NCBI GenBank assembly: GCA_026398785.1
Contig: JAPLSF010000085.1
Coordinates: 1-35,033 of the forward strand
Source: Pseudomonadota bacterium
Lineage (GTDB): Bacteria; Pseudomonadota; Gammaproteobacteria; Steroidobacterales; Steroidobacteraceae
Direction: 5' to 3'
Length of the DNA: 35,033 bases
Below, piece by piece: positions 6,061 through 19,597 of the stretch. The position numbers and the translations under genes were made by a program. A model generated the notes under the pieces. The model was not told the DNA's origin. It worked only from the letters and a program-made list of their open reading frames with translations, and did no database searches. Within the stretch, counting starts at the first letter, position 1. Every line of letters begins with the position of its first letter.

Positions 6061-7071
6061 ATGTCCGATCCCCGCCGCAATCGCTTCAAGACTTACGCCG
6101 GTGTGCTGGTGAGCGTGCTGCTCGCCGCGCTTGCCGGGTGGGTACTGTGGCGCACGTTCCAGCGCATCAGGTTTGCGGACGTCCTCGCGCAGATGGAGGC
6201 GGTGCCCGCGTCGACGCTCGCACTCGCCGGCCTGTGTGCCGCCGGTGCGTTCACGGTACTCGCGCTCTACGAAGTCGCGGTGGTGCGTTACGTGAAGCAG
6301 GCGGTCGGGCGCGCCAAGCCGATGCTCACGGCCTACATTGCGTTCCCGCTGGGACACGCCGTCGGTCAGGCGATGCTGAGCGGAGGCGCGTTGCGTTATC
6401 GCATGTACACGCCGGCCGGCTTTTCGGCGACGGACGTCGGCGCCACCGTGCTGCTCGCGAACATGCCGTATGCGCTCGGCTTCGGGCTGCTGCTCGACAT
6501 CTCGCTGGTCTTTGCGGCAGAGATGCTCGAACCGATGTTCCGCATTTCGAGCGGCTGGCTGCGCGTGCTCGGCCTCATCGGCCTCTGCAAGGATGCGGCC
6601 TACGTGCTGCTGATCCTGTTGCGCAAGCGGCCGGTGCAGCTCGGCGGCTGGTCGGTCAACCTGCCCACGCCTGCGATGACGGCACTGCAGCTCTGCGTCG
6701 GACTCGCCGATATTTTCCTCGTCTCGACGGTGCTCTACCTGCTGCTGCCGGCGTCACTGGGCATTCCGTACCTCGCGTTCCTCGGCGCCTATCTTGCGAG
6801 CATTCTCGCGGGCGTACTGAGCCACGTACCGGCGGGGCTCGGCGTGCTCGAGTCGGTGCTGCTGCTGCTGTTGCCCGACGTTCCGCCCGAGCAGTTGCTC
6901 GCGGCCGTGCTGATGTACCGGGTGATCTACGAGATCATTCCGGTGCTGCTCGCGCTGGCGCTCTGGGGCATCTTCGAAGGCTTTTCGCGCGACGGCGTGC
7001 TGTTGCGCGTGTTCGGCCGTCAGGGGCGGGCCATGCGCGCCGAGAGTCCGACCATCGACAGCAGCGAGTGA
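6061..7071 (+). CDS. YbhN/lysylphosphatidylglycerol synthase-type integral membrane protein
   Basis: 336 aa with about eight hydrophobic segments and no soluble domain. It matches the flippase-like membrane half of MprF (the LPG_synthase_TM or UPF0104 family). Signs are the N-terminal helix VLVSVLLAALAGWVLWRTF, the loop GHAVGQAMLSGGALRYRMY, and the helix GVLSHVPAGLGVLESVLLLLL, which carries the conserved P-x-G-x-G-x-x-E pattern. The lysyl-transferase domain of MprF is absent, so lipid lysylation is not expected; stand-alone members are thought to move lipids or lipid-linked groups, with substrate unknown here. A Fur-like palindrome lies upstream. Its 3' end overlaps the convergent oxidoreductase gene by 52 bp. 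Confidence 0.85.
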   Translation: MSDPRRNRFKTYAGVLVSVLLAALAGWVLWRTFQRIRFADVLAQMEAVPASTLALAGLCAAGAFTVLALYEVAVVRYVKQAVGRAKPMLTAYIAFPLGHAVGQAMLSGGALRYRMYTPAGFSATDVGATVLLANMPYALGFGLLLDISLVFAAEMLEPMFRISSGWLRVLGLIGLCKDAAYVLLILLRKRPVQLGGWSVNLPTPAMTALQLCVGLADIFLVSTVLYLLLPASLGIPYLAFLGAYLASILAGVLSHVPAGLGVLESVLLLLLPDVPPEQLLAAVLMYRVIYEIIPVLLALALWGIFEGFSRDGVLLRVFGRQGRAMRAESPTIDSSE

Positions 7072-8024
7072 GCGAGGCTGCGGCCGCTCTCGAATGCGGC
7101 TTCGACGCGCGGCGCGATGCACCAGTCGCCGCAGGCGCCCGCGCTCATTTCTTCATCGACCAGGCACGACAGGCCGAGCGGCTGCTCCACCAGCGCCTGA
7201 CGCCAGCGATGCGCGTCCTGATGCACGGGCGTGGGCAGCTTGCAACCGAGTTTGTCCTCGAACGCCTGCAGCAACAGGCGCGCGGCTTCCGTCGCATCGA
7301 GTTCGATGTGCTCGCGCGACCATCCGGATGAGGCGTGTAACACCCAGCATTGCGGCGTGTGCGGACGGCCAGGCTTGCTCGAGTTGCACGCCGCCCAGAC
7401 GATCGGCCCCTTGGTCCAGCGCCGCGCATCGGCGCCTGCGTCGATCGGCGGATCGAAAGCGAACATGCCCGTCCAGCACGGTGCCATCCGCACGTCGGCG
7501 ATGTGCTTGAACGAGCGGCCATGCGGTACCAGCAGTGAATGTGCATGCGGTGCCGGCACCGCGACCGCCACGGCGCGAAAGGTCACGTTCTGCCGGCCAA
7601 AGTCTGTCTGCAGTTGCCAGCCGCGCTGGCTCGGGATCAGTTCGTGGACCGCGATGCCGCCATGGATCTCGATGTTGCGCGCGAGCGGTCGCACCAGCGC
7701 GCTCATGCCCGGCTGGCCAATCCACCAGTCTTCGATCGGTGCGGGCCACGCGCGGTCGTCTTCCATGATGCGCGGACGCCAGGCATCGAGCTTGCCGGCT
7801 CGCAACGCGGTTTCCGCGTAACGGCTGAAAGGGTGGCTGCGCGTCGTGATGAACTGCGCGCCGTGATCGAACGCGAGTGACCCGATTCGACGCGTGGCGA
7901 GACGTCCACCCAGGCCGCGTGAGCGCTCGAATACCGTGACCCTGGCATCGGCCCGCGCGAGTTCGTGGGCGCAGGCCAGCCCTGCCATGCCGGCACCGAT
8001 CACCGCAAACCGCACGTCATCCAT
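7020..8024 (-). CDS. renalase-like FAD-dependent amine oxidase family protein
   Basis: 334 aa. The N-terminal Rossmann motif VIGAGMAGLACAHEL with the acidic residue in VTVFERSRGLGGRLATRR binds FAD. DHGAQFITTR and, further on, QPGMSALVRPLA fit bacterial renalase-like NAD(P)/FAD proteins. The C-terminal segment W-R-x-A and GDWCIAPRVEAAFESGRSLA is the usual flavin-proximal end of this family. Bacterial renalases oxidise off-pathway dihydro-NAD(P) isomers; whether this one does is not shown by sequence. The ATG at 8024 is preceded by AGAGGAAA; an in-frame ATG 45 nt upstream has no family-like residues. It reads into the 3' end of the YbhN-like gene on the other strand. Confidence 0.85.
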   Translation of the reverse strand: MDDVRFAVIGAGMAGLACAHELARADARVTVFERSRGLGGRLATRRIGSLAFDHGAQFITTRSHPFSRYAETALRAGKLDAWRPRIMEDDRAWPAPIEDWWIGQPGMSALVRPLARNIEIHGGIAVHELIPSQRGWQLQTDFGRQNVTFRAVAVAVPAPHAHSLLVPHGRSFKHIADVRMAPCWTGMFAFDPPIDAGADARRWTKGPIVWAACNSSKPGRPHTPQCWVLHASSGWSREHIELDATEAARLLLQAFEDKLGCKLPTPVHQDAHRWRQALVEQPLGLSCLVDEEMSAGACGDWCIAPRVEAAFESGRSLAHSLLSMVGLSARMARP

Positions 8025-18026: not shown

Positions 18027-19208
18027 ATGTCGCGGCCGGTCCGGTCCTCGCCCCGAGCGCAGCTCGTCACTGCCTCGGTCGTTCCCGCCTTGAGCGCGAT
18101 CGCACTGCTGGCCTTTGCCCCGGCGGCTTGCGCCCTCGACGACACCATGGGCGTCGTCACCCAGAAAGCCAGGGTGGAGTTGACGGTCGTCACGAGTGGG
18201 CTCGAGCACCCCTGGGGCATCGCCTTTCTCCCGGACGGTCGAGCGCTGGTCACCGAACGTCCCGGCCGGCTGCGTGTACTCGACCGCAACGGCAAGGCCG
18301 GCGAGCCACTCACCGGCGTGCCGGCGGTGGACGCGGTCGGGCAGGGCGGCCTGCTCGACGTTGCGCTCGATCCTGATTTCGCGCGCAACCAGCGCATCTA
18401 TCTTTCGTACGCGGAACCCCGCGGCGGGGGAACGAATGGCACGAGCGTCGTCCGCGCGAAGCTCGGGGCCAGCGGGCTCGGCGACGTCACCGTCATTTTT
18501 CGACAGCAGCCGGCGATGGCCAGCAGGCACCACTTCGGCTCGCGCCTCGTGTTTGGTCGCGACGGCAACCTGTTCGTGACGCTGGGAGACCGCAACTCCG
18601 GGCGCGACAAGGTGCAGCTGCTCGACAATCACATCGGCAAGGTCGTGCGCATCGACCGCGATGGCAAGGCACCGGCGGACAACCCGTACCTCAAGCAGGC
18701 GGGCGCACTGCCGGAAATATGGTCCGTCGGGCATCGCAACGTCCAGGGCGCGGCGCTCGATCCTGCGACCGGCGATCTCTGGACGGACGAACACGGCCCG
18801 AAAGGCGGCGACGAACTCAACCGCACGCTCGGTGGCCGCAACTACGGCTGGCCGCTCGTCACGTACGGGATGGAGTATTCAGGCAAGCCGATCAGCGATC
18901 GCACCGCAGCGCCAGGATTGGAATCGCCTGTGCATTACTGGGTACCTTCGATCGCGACGAGTGGACTCGCGTTCTATACGGGGGCAGCGATCCCGGAGTG
19001 GTACGGCAACGTGTTCGTGGGCGGGTTGAAGGTGGGCGAACTGGCGCGACTCGAGCTGCGCGACGGTAAGGTCGTGAGCGAGGAACGACTGTTCGTCGAG
19101 GCGCTCGGGAAGCGGATTCGCACCGTCGTGAACGGGCCGGATGGCGCGTTGTACCTGCTTACCGACGAGGAAGACGGGCAGCTGATCCGGGTGACGGCGG
19201 CGAAGTAA
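18027..19208 (+). CDS. periplasmic PQQ-dependent aldose/sorbosone dehydrogenase-type protein
   Basis: 393 aa. A basic then hydrophobic N-terminus ending in PAACALD indicates Sec export. The rest is a six-bladed beta-propeller of the glucose/sorbosone dehydrogenase (GSDH, YliI) family: LEHPWGIAFLPDGRALVTERPGRL, GQGGLLDVALDPDF, RHHFGSRLVFGRDGNLFVTLGDR, IGKVVRIDRDG, IWSVGHRNVQGAALDP, DEHGPKGGDELN and GRNYGWPLVTYG. These residues shape the PQQ and calcium sites in known members. It would oxidise aldoses in the periplasm and needs PQQ, for which no synthesis genes are here. The start follows CCGGAG at good distance. Its TAA lies inside the first copy of a 33-bp direct repeat. Confidence 0.92.
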   Translation: MSRPVRSSPRAQLVTASVVPALSAIALLAFAPAACALDDTMGVVTQKARVELTVVTSGLEHPWGIAFLPDGRALVTERPGRLRVLDRNGKAGEPLTGVPAVDAVGQGGLLDVALDPDFARNQRIYLSYAEPRGGGTNGTSVVRAKLGASGLGDVTVIFRQQPAMASRHHFGSRLVFGRDGNLFVTLGDRNSGRDKVQLLDNHIGKVVRIDRDGKAPADNPYLKQAGALPEIWSVGHRNVQGAALDPATGDLWTDEHGPKGGDELNRTLGGRNYGWPLVTYGMEYSGKPISDRTAAPGLESPVHYWVPSIATSGLAFYTGAAIPEWYGNVFVGGLKVGELARLELRDGKVVSEERLFVEALGKRIRTVVNGPDGALYLLTDEEDGQLIRVTAAK

Positions 19209-19272
19209 GTCCCTAGGCCCGTCGCCGCCCGACCTGTAAGTAAGTCCCTAGGCCCGTCGCCGCCCGACCTGT
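19205..19272 (+). repeat. tandem duplication, 33 bp twice, period 35
   Basis: 19205-19237 and 19240-19272 are identical (GTAAGTCCCTAGGCCCGTCG... to ...GACCTGTA), joined by AG-containing linker bases. The first copy contains the stop codon of the aldose dehydrogenase gene; the second ends 13 nt before the tRNA-Ile gene. It looks like a recent local duplication, not a phage attachment site, as it shares nothing with the tRNA. Confidence 0.9.
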
Positions 19273-19277
19273 AGTAT
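19272..19277 (+). promoter_or_regulatory. possible -10 box of the tRNA-Ile gene
   Basis: TAGTAT followed by a GC-rich discriminator (TCGCGCGG) 8 nt before the mature tRNA 5' end, as in stringently controlled stable-RNA promoters. No clear -35 box is visible. Confidence 0.3.
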
Positions 19278-19285
19278 TCGCGCGG

Positions 19286-19597
19286 GGGCCTGTAGCACAG
19301 CGGTTAGTGCAGGGGACTCATCGAAAGGTGCCTCCGCGGAGTAATCCACGGAGTGGACGGGATGAATTCAGGGAAACCTAATGGCGAAGGCGCCGATGGC
19401 AATCCTGAGCCAAGCCGGCGGTACACCGCCGGAAGGTGCAGAGACTACCTGAGGGCTGCAGTGCCCTTGATAACAGGTTCAGCTTCCCGCACCCGACCGG
19501 CATTAGGCCGAGGGTGAAGAGATAGTCCACGCCCGAAGGAAACTTCGGGGCCACGTGAATCCCTTGGTCCTGGGTTCGAATCCCAGCGGGCCCACCA
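19286..19597 (+). tRNA. ileX: tRNA-Ile(CAU), interrupted by a group I intron
   Basis: Exons 19286-19321 and 19558-19597 join into a 76-nt tRNA with all arms paired. Acceptor GGGCCTG pairs with CGGGCCC, then ACCA encoded. The D-stem is GCAC/GTGC, the anticodon stem GGGGA/TCCCT with loop CTCATAA, and the T-arm CTGGG-TTCGAAT-CCCAG. Anticodon CAU would fit Met or Ile2. C4-G69 and C5-G68 in the acceptor, which TilS recognises, and the GACTCATAATC...TTGGTC context indicate the minor isoleucine tRNA, whose C34 becomes lysidine to read AUA. Splicing is needed for function because the intron splits the anticodon loop after U36. The gene symbol follows E. coli usage and is tentative. Confidence 0.93.
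19322..19557 (+). ncRNA. self-splicing group I intron (IC3-like), 236 nt, no ORF
   Basis: Starts after U36 of the tRNA and ends with G, as group I introns do. P1 can form between exon CAU and intron GUG (19328-19330), giving the required U-G pair at the 5' site. The conserved core elements are in order: P, AATTCAGGGAAACCTAA (near 19364-19381); Q, AATCCTGAGCCAAGCC (19401-19416); R, GGTGCAGAGACT (19435-19446); S, AAGAGATAGTCC (19517-19528). R and S can form P7 (AGACTA with TAGTC). P6 is a perfect CCGGCGG/CCGCCGG hairpin (19415-19432) and P9 a CCCGAAG/CTTCGGG stem capped by GAAA (19532-19549). It matches in site and core the ~205-nt tRNA-Ile(CAU) intron of the betaproteobacterium Azoarcus. No homing endonuclease is encoded. 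Confidence 0.95.

Follow-up and report, generated by a model that had tools for sequence, protein, structure and literature searches.

A P7.1-bearing group I intron after U36 of tRNA-Ile(CAU) in a Steroidobacteraceae genome

The window analysed here is a 35,033-nt stretch of DNA from a Steroidobacteraceae genome. It carries a tRNA-Ile(CAU) gene at 19286-19597 that is interrupted after U36 by a 236-nt insert. The insert is a real group I intron at the classic site, and it belongs to a lineage other than the one named in the original prediction. Our reading, held at a probability of about 0.9, is that this is a functional tRNA-Ile(CAU) gene with a P7.1-bearing group I ribozyme after U36, from a lineage related to tmRNA and phage introns and not to Azoarcus, kept mainly by descent with repeated loss; within this reading we infer catalysis, in vivo splicing, essentiality and ultimate origin. 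Sequence, structure, clade and patchy distribution are direct results, as is the splice junction, which is given by a natural intronless allele.

The interrupted tRNA gene

19286..19321, forward strand: 5' exon of tRNA-Ile(CAU), positions 1-36, its last bases being the anticodon C34-A35-U36
19322..19557, forward strand: group I intron, 236 nt, final base G (omega G), identified by an RF00028 match and by compensatory changes over 57 sequences
19558..19597, forward strand: 3' exon of tRNA-Ile(CAU), from A37 to the encoded CCA, identified by the match of the joined exons to an uninterrupted tRNA (L211)

The joined exons, GGGCCTGTAGCACAGCGGTTAGTGCAGGGGACTCAT followed directly by AATCCCTTGGTCCTGGGTTCGAATCCCAGCGGGCCCACCA, form a 76-nt tRNA that is identical at 76 of 76 positions to L211, an uninterrupted tRNA in a genome (G032) from another genus of the same family. 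L211 is thus a natural empty site, which fixes the junction after U36, where a group I intron had been predicted; the predicted length of 236 nt is exact. C4-G69 and C5-G68, which had been named as TilS determinants, are both read in the acceptor stem, and TilS is encoded in the window's genome (G000:C359, 167 bits). By its CAU anticodon, these two pairs and the presence of TilS, the tRNA is identified as tRNA-Ile2, a predicted TilS substrate.

Six genomes of the window's genus have identical exons, whereas five of the six diverge in the intron by 1-15%; exons that stay fixed as the introns diverge indicate selection maintaining the spliced product.

Structure of the intron

The Rfam search put forward in the original prediction returns a full-model match to RF00028 (Intron_gpI) at 19309-19549; it scores 67.2 bits where the gathering threshold is 50 (E 3.9e-15). 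This is the sole group I match in the genome. The modelled elements are as follows; cell percentages refer to an alignment of 57 relatives.

19319..19330, forward strand: P1, C34-A35-U36-C1 with G6-G7-U8-G9 of the intron (CAUC/GGUG), GAAA loop, splice pair U36.G
19332..19353, forward strand: P2 hairpin with a GUAA loop; 8 of 8 pairs vary on both sides, and GNRA loops are common among relatives
19358..19364, forward strand: P3 5' strand, CGGGAUG; P3 is paired in 95.7% of cells, with a U42.U163 mismatch in the window's genome
19368..19408, forward strand: P4-P5 domain, elements P and Q; P4 is paired in 98.8% of cells
19409..19437, forward strand: P6/P6a, paired in 97.9-100% of cells, with changes on both sides in P6a
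19443..19447, forward strand: P7 5' strand, GACUA, element R, invariant over 57 rows
19448..19477, forward strand: P7.1 hairpin between P7 and P3, CCUG AGGGC-loop-GCCCU UGAUAA CAGG, 30 nt; 9 of 9 pairs are present in 100% of cells
19483..19489, forward strand: P3 3' strand, from the pair counts over 57 relatives
19490..19516, forward strand: P8, paired in 97.2% of cells
19523..19527, forward strand: P7 3' strand, UAGUC, element S, invariant
19529..19556, forward strand: P9.0 (19529-19531 with 19554-19556) around P9 (19532-19549, GAAA loop)

For the 71 pairs modelled on the window intron, standard pairs fill 92.8% of cells in the 57 relatives, and 42 of the 71 vary on both sides; when partner columns are slid by 1-3, pairing falls to 33-48%. 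Alignment A1 includes one misparsed row, L073, in which an intact upstream tRNA was taken as the 5' exon. The RNA folding energy gives z = -3.6 against shuffled sequences. The full-model match and the pair counts define a conserved, covarying P3-P8 catalytic core with the guanosine site in P7. P9.0, which places the omega G in the modelled structure, is paired in 97.7% of cells with AU/GC/UA exchanges, and P9 in 89.8%. The outer pairs of P5 are weakly supported in the alignment (45.6%). P3 of the window has one U.U mismatch, which is U.G in close relatives; a standard pair is missing there in 9 of 57 rows.

Several further details of the original prediction also hold. Elements P, Q, R and S are located in the P4-P5 domain and the strands of P7. 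The splice pair is UG in 57 of 57 aligned relatives, and all 104 distinct introns end in G between CTCAT and AATCC, in a set partly selected by these motifs. The GAAA cap described for P9 is seen in the window and recurs in L9 of 92 of the 104. The longest open frame within the intron has 64 codons; it therefore contains no real ORF, as had been stated. By analogy with Azoarcus, the GUAA loop of P2, a GNRA loop, would be expected to dock in P8, and CCUAAU/GAUGG in the P4-P5 domain resembles the 11-nt receptor for a GAAA loop.

One detail that had been missed is the P7.1 hairpin. Between the 5' strand of P7 and the 3' strand of P3, 33 nt find no place in the Rfam alignment; this stretch is the hairpin. 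Among the 57 relatives its outer stem shows compensatory changes of CG to GC and UA to GC, and in three of the inner pairs both partners vary. Instead of CCUG/CAGG, the Verrucomicrobiota rows of the alignment have GCGG/CCGC as the outer stem; GCGG/CCGC is also read, outside the alignment, in Fibrobacter and betaproteobacterial relatives.

Distribution of P7.1-type introns

The window's genome groups with MAGs that bear the label Steroidobacteraceae or Gammaproteobacteria (L068, L071 and L041 are contigs of its genus). The suspected gammaproteobacterial host is supported. A scan of GTDB genomes with a pattern of P7 plus P7.1 found at least 120 stretches; since the pattern requires P7.1, this number is no measure against other intron types. 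Most of the matches listed are tRNA-Ile(CAU) genes in Gammaproteobacteria (Rhodanobacteraceae, Lysobacteraceae, Woeseiaceae, Steroidobacteraceae, Granulosicoccaceae and others). A few listed matches come from MAGs with the label Verrucomicrobiota or FCPU426, which may be misbinned. Group I introns of some kind occur in 43 of 276 sampled genomes of the class. No description of a P7.1-bearing tRNA-Ile intron lineage was found in the open-access literature, outside which most subscription journals lie.

Read from their exons, P7.1-type introns are also present in tRNA-Thr(UGU) (L146, L149, L152), tRNA-Lys(CUU) (L004, L074, L154) and tRNA-Asn(GUU) (L183). All of these hosts have U36, without which no U.G splice pair could form at this position. 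In four cases (L031, L087, L103, L117) the host is a tRNA-Leu and the intron apparently lies near positions 32/33, not after 36; the U36 rule thus fits most hosts, not all. Group I introns reported in tRNA-Arg(UCU) and tRNA-Leu(UAA) of Beggiatoa and Thiomargarita also interrupt gammaproteobacterial tRNAs, but other ones, and their subgroup was not determined in that paper (PMC4853749).

The P7.1 element is shared with group I introns of the tmRNA T-loop (PMC11915505). Two P7.1-type introns in the tmRNA T-loop of Hymenobacter (L066, L069), where RF00023 and RF00028 matches overlap, share the P7.1 motif of the window intron and lie within the P7.1-bearing clade. Host RNA and site differ: the tmRNA introns lie in the T-loop, that of the window in the anticodon loop.

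Endonuclease-like frames were seen near some other introns. In a Paludibacteraceae MAG (L049), a P7.1-type intron with such a frame upstream precedes the 3' exon of a tRNA. In two genomes of the same order as the window (L268, L269), a 23S rRNA group I intron has a long endonuclease-like frame upstream of P7.

Descent with loss or recent gain

The survey of tRNA-Ile(CAU) in related genomes that had been suggested shows a patchy distribution within the family. An intact tRNA-Ile(CAU) pattern is matched in 32 of 60 sampled family genomes (one mismatch allowed; at least one match, G514, is a tRNA-Lys) and in none of the 12 intron-bearing family genomes checked in this sample. On a LepA tree, intron presence needs 9 changes among 31 scored genomes. 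Such patchiness could reflect a recent horizontal gain in the window's genus, from a phage or another gammaproteobacterium, and a homing-endonuclease version at the same site on a viral contig is in keeping with this. We regard such a gain as possible but unlikely, as the introns of the window's genus mostly cluster and intron distances track host distances (Mantel test of intron against LepA distances: r 0.76, p 0.0001; when the window's genome is the only one kept from its genus, r 0.47, p 0.015). In addition, the window intron has no homing endonuclease gene, and its compact relatives are too short for one.

The original prediction had offered transfer or old descent. Given that the P7.1 type occurs widely among Gammaproteobacteria and diverges in step with a host gene, descent with repeated loss is a better account than a recent transfer out of Betaproteobacteria. 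The distances and distribution fit an intron kept mainly by long descent with repeated loss, and some local transfer is possible.

Two intron lineages at one site

The group IC3 intron in tRNA-Ile(CAU) of Azoarcus sp. BH72 and the window intron have much in common: the host tRNA, the site after U36 (as originally pointed out), small size without an ORF, GNRA loops on P2 and P9 (GAAA in L9), the U.G splice site, the omega G and a similar P4-P6 sequence. The Q/R sequence of the window intron (GGCAAUCCUGAGCCAAGC) also looks IC3-like to us, though P7.1 is an IA-type element. Azoarcus-type introns exist at the tRNA-Ile(CAU) site even in the window's own family, where L267 (G020:C4) is one. That the window intron is itself a subgroup IC3, Azoarcus-type intron acquired from Betaproteobacteria is nevertheless very improbable. 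In the Azoarcus-type introns L184 and L185, found by searching the order of an Azonexus genome, and in L267, P7 GACUA continues directly into P3 GACGGC; none of the three has P7.1. The window intron lacks this direct passage from P7 to the P3 3' strand, an IC3/Azoarcus trait, and has instead the extra helix between P7 and P3 that is an IA trait.

The rest of the core gives the same division. In a tree of 109 columns outside P7.1, from which columns aligning P7.1 to P3/P8 of P7.1-less introns were left out, a 99/99 branch splits P7.1-bearing introns from P7.1-less tRNA introns. Azoarcus-type Ile introns join those of tRNA-Leu and tRNA-Arg on one side; the window intron is on the other. A single clade of all tRNA-Ile introns is rejected on these columns (p-AU 0.007). 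The label "Azoarcus-type" in the original prediction is therefore abandoned. The split and the rejected clade imply that the tRNA-Ile(CAU) site has been occupied at least twice; judged by their cores, two ribozyme lineages are found at the same site, even within the window's family. A P7.1-bearing tRNA-Ile intron is also present in an Azonexus MAG (L032), so the lineage split is not simply one of Beta- against Gammaproteobacteria.

Introns in tRNA-Ile2 of the betaproteobacteria Acidovorax and Burkholderia have been noted in the tRNAscan-SE 2.0 paper (PMC8450103). The picture of the tRNA-Ile(CAU) anticodon-loop intron as being of the Azoarcus kind is corrected by the present results: a structurally different lineage holds the site across Gammaproteobacteria. 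The td (IA2) ribozyme is described as set apart from the IC3 ribozymes of Azoarcus and Synechococcus by an extension, P7.1/P7.2, that lies between P7 and P3 (PMC4498298). An extra helix in this position is shared by the window intron, group IA2 introns such as phage T4 td, and the psbA region of cyanophage S-PM2. Unlike the window intron, td and the psbA region have protein-coding hosts, and the extension in td is P7.1/7.2. Introns that share an exon context but differ in having or lacking P7.1 form a natural ribozyme pair, which is useful for asking what P7.1 does.

Viral relatives

The P7.1 motif is also found in viral contigs among the matches listed, and the cyanophage S-PM2 psbA region gives a 74% match to intron positions 77-175. 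On one viral contig (L393, 6921-7769), a 777-nt group I intron of the P7.1 type interrupts a phage-type tRNA directly after its CAU anticodon, the insertion site that is also used in the window. This intron contains an HNH endonuclease ORF at 7028-7645 (PF13392, E 1e-10); the tRNA has two further tRNAs and phage genes resembling RNA polymerase beta as neighbours. A sequence 100% identical to L393 is on an 84.8-kb contig (L419) and is probably the same record. In another viral contig (L308), a tRNA 3' exon follows a P7.1-type intron and has an endonuclease-like frame upstream.

According to a 2014 review, all phage introns known at that time were in protein-coding genes (PMC3984707). The L393 intron suggests a route of spread, with homing from phage into bacterial tRNA genes as a concrete hypothesis. 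The tree that includes viral sequences has 145 columns and many unresolved forks; for this reason no direction of transfer is read from it. A wider scenario, to which we give an even chance, is that P7.1-less (Azoarcus) and P7.1-bearing lineages colonised the site after U36 independently, that the P7.1 lineage spreads mainly among tRNAs for ANN codons, since U36 is required for splicing at this site, and that phages with a homing-endonuclease form at the same site are a source.

Splicing and AUA decoding

Structure and conservation suggest that the intron is spliced. The transcript of the tRNA-Ile(CAU) gene would fold, and GTP would attack just behind the U36.G pair of P1; U36, once released, would then attack after omega G236, joining the exons with the anticodon loop intact. 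TilS would subsequently convert C34 to lysidine-34, allowing the tRNA to read AUA.

A second tRNA-Ile(CAU) was not found in the genome, where the pattern CTCATAATC matches only two non-tRNA places; neither tRNA-Ile(UAU) nor another Ile2 is among the 23 tRNAs detected (assembly 85% complete, 409 contigs), and no plasmid copies were found. The interrupted gene is probably the only AUA-reading tRNA-Ile of the genome, a second copy being possible in an assembly that is 85% complete. The predicted dependence of AUA decoding on splicing is supported to this extent, and the tRNA-Ile(CAU) is likely to be essential. AUA is used but rare in the larger ORFs of the window. Its rarity and the U.U mismatch in P3 might point to a decaying gene, with a splicing-dead intron in a dispensable tRNA, a reading that is hardly credible given an intron that drifts between exons which stay unchanged over six genomes of the genus, a conserved intron structure, AUA in use with no other tRNA found to read it, and a retained TilS.

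Detection by tRNA finders and flanking DNA

Common tRNA finders miss or miscall a tRNA-Ile(CAU) with an intron; consequently, tRNA-Ile2 can look absent from such genomes. With default settings ARAGORN reports no tRNA in the window. When introns are allowed, it reports a tRNA-Gln(CTG) with a misplaced splice site; this call is ruled out by the relatives and by intronless L211, which place the junction after U36.

A scan for the sigma-70 consensus found no full site. A possible -10 box was picked out by eye in six genomes of the genus:

19272..19277, forward strand: possible -10 box TAGTAT, 8 nt ahead of the tRNA, with TAGAAT or TACAAT close to this place in relatives

Directly upstream of the tRNA, in a position where five relatives lack it, the window has an exact 35-nt tandem duplication (19203-19272), which overlaps the end of a glucose/sorbosone dehydrogenase ORF.
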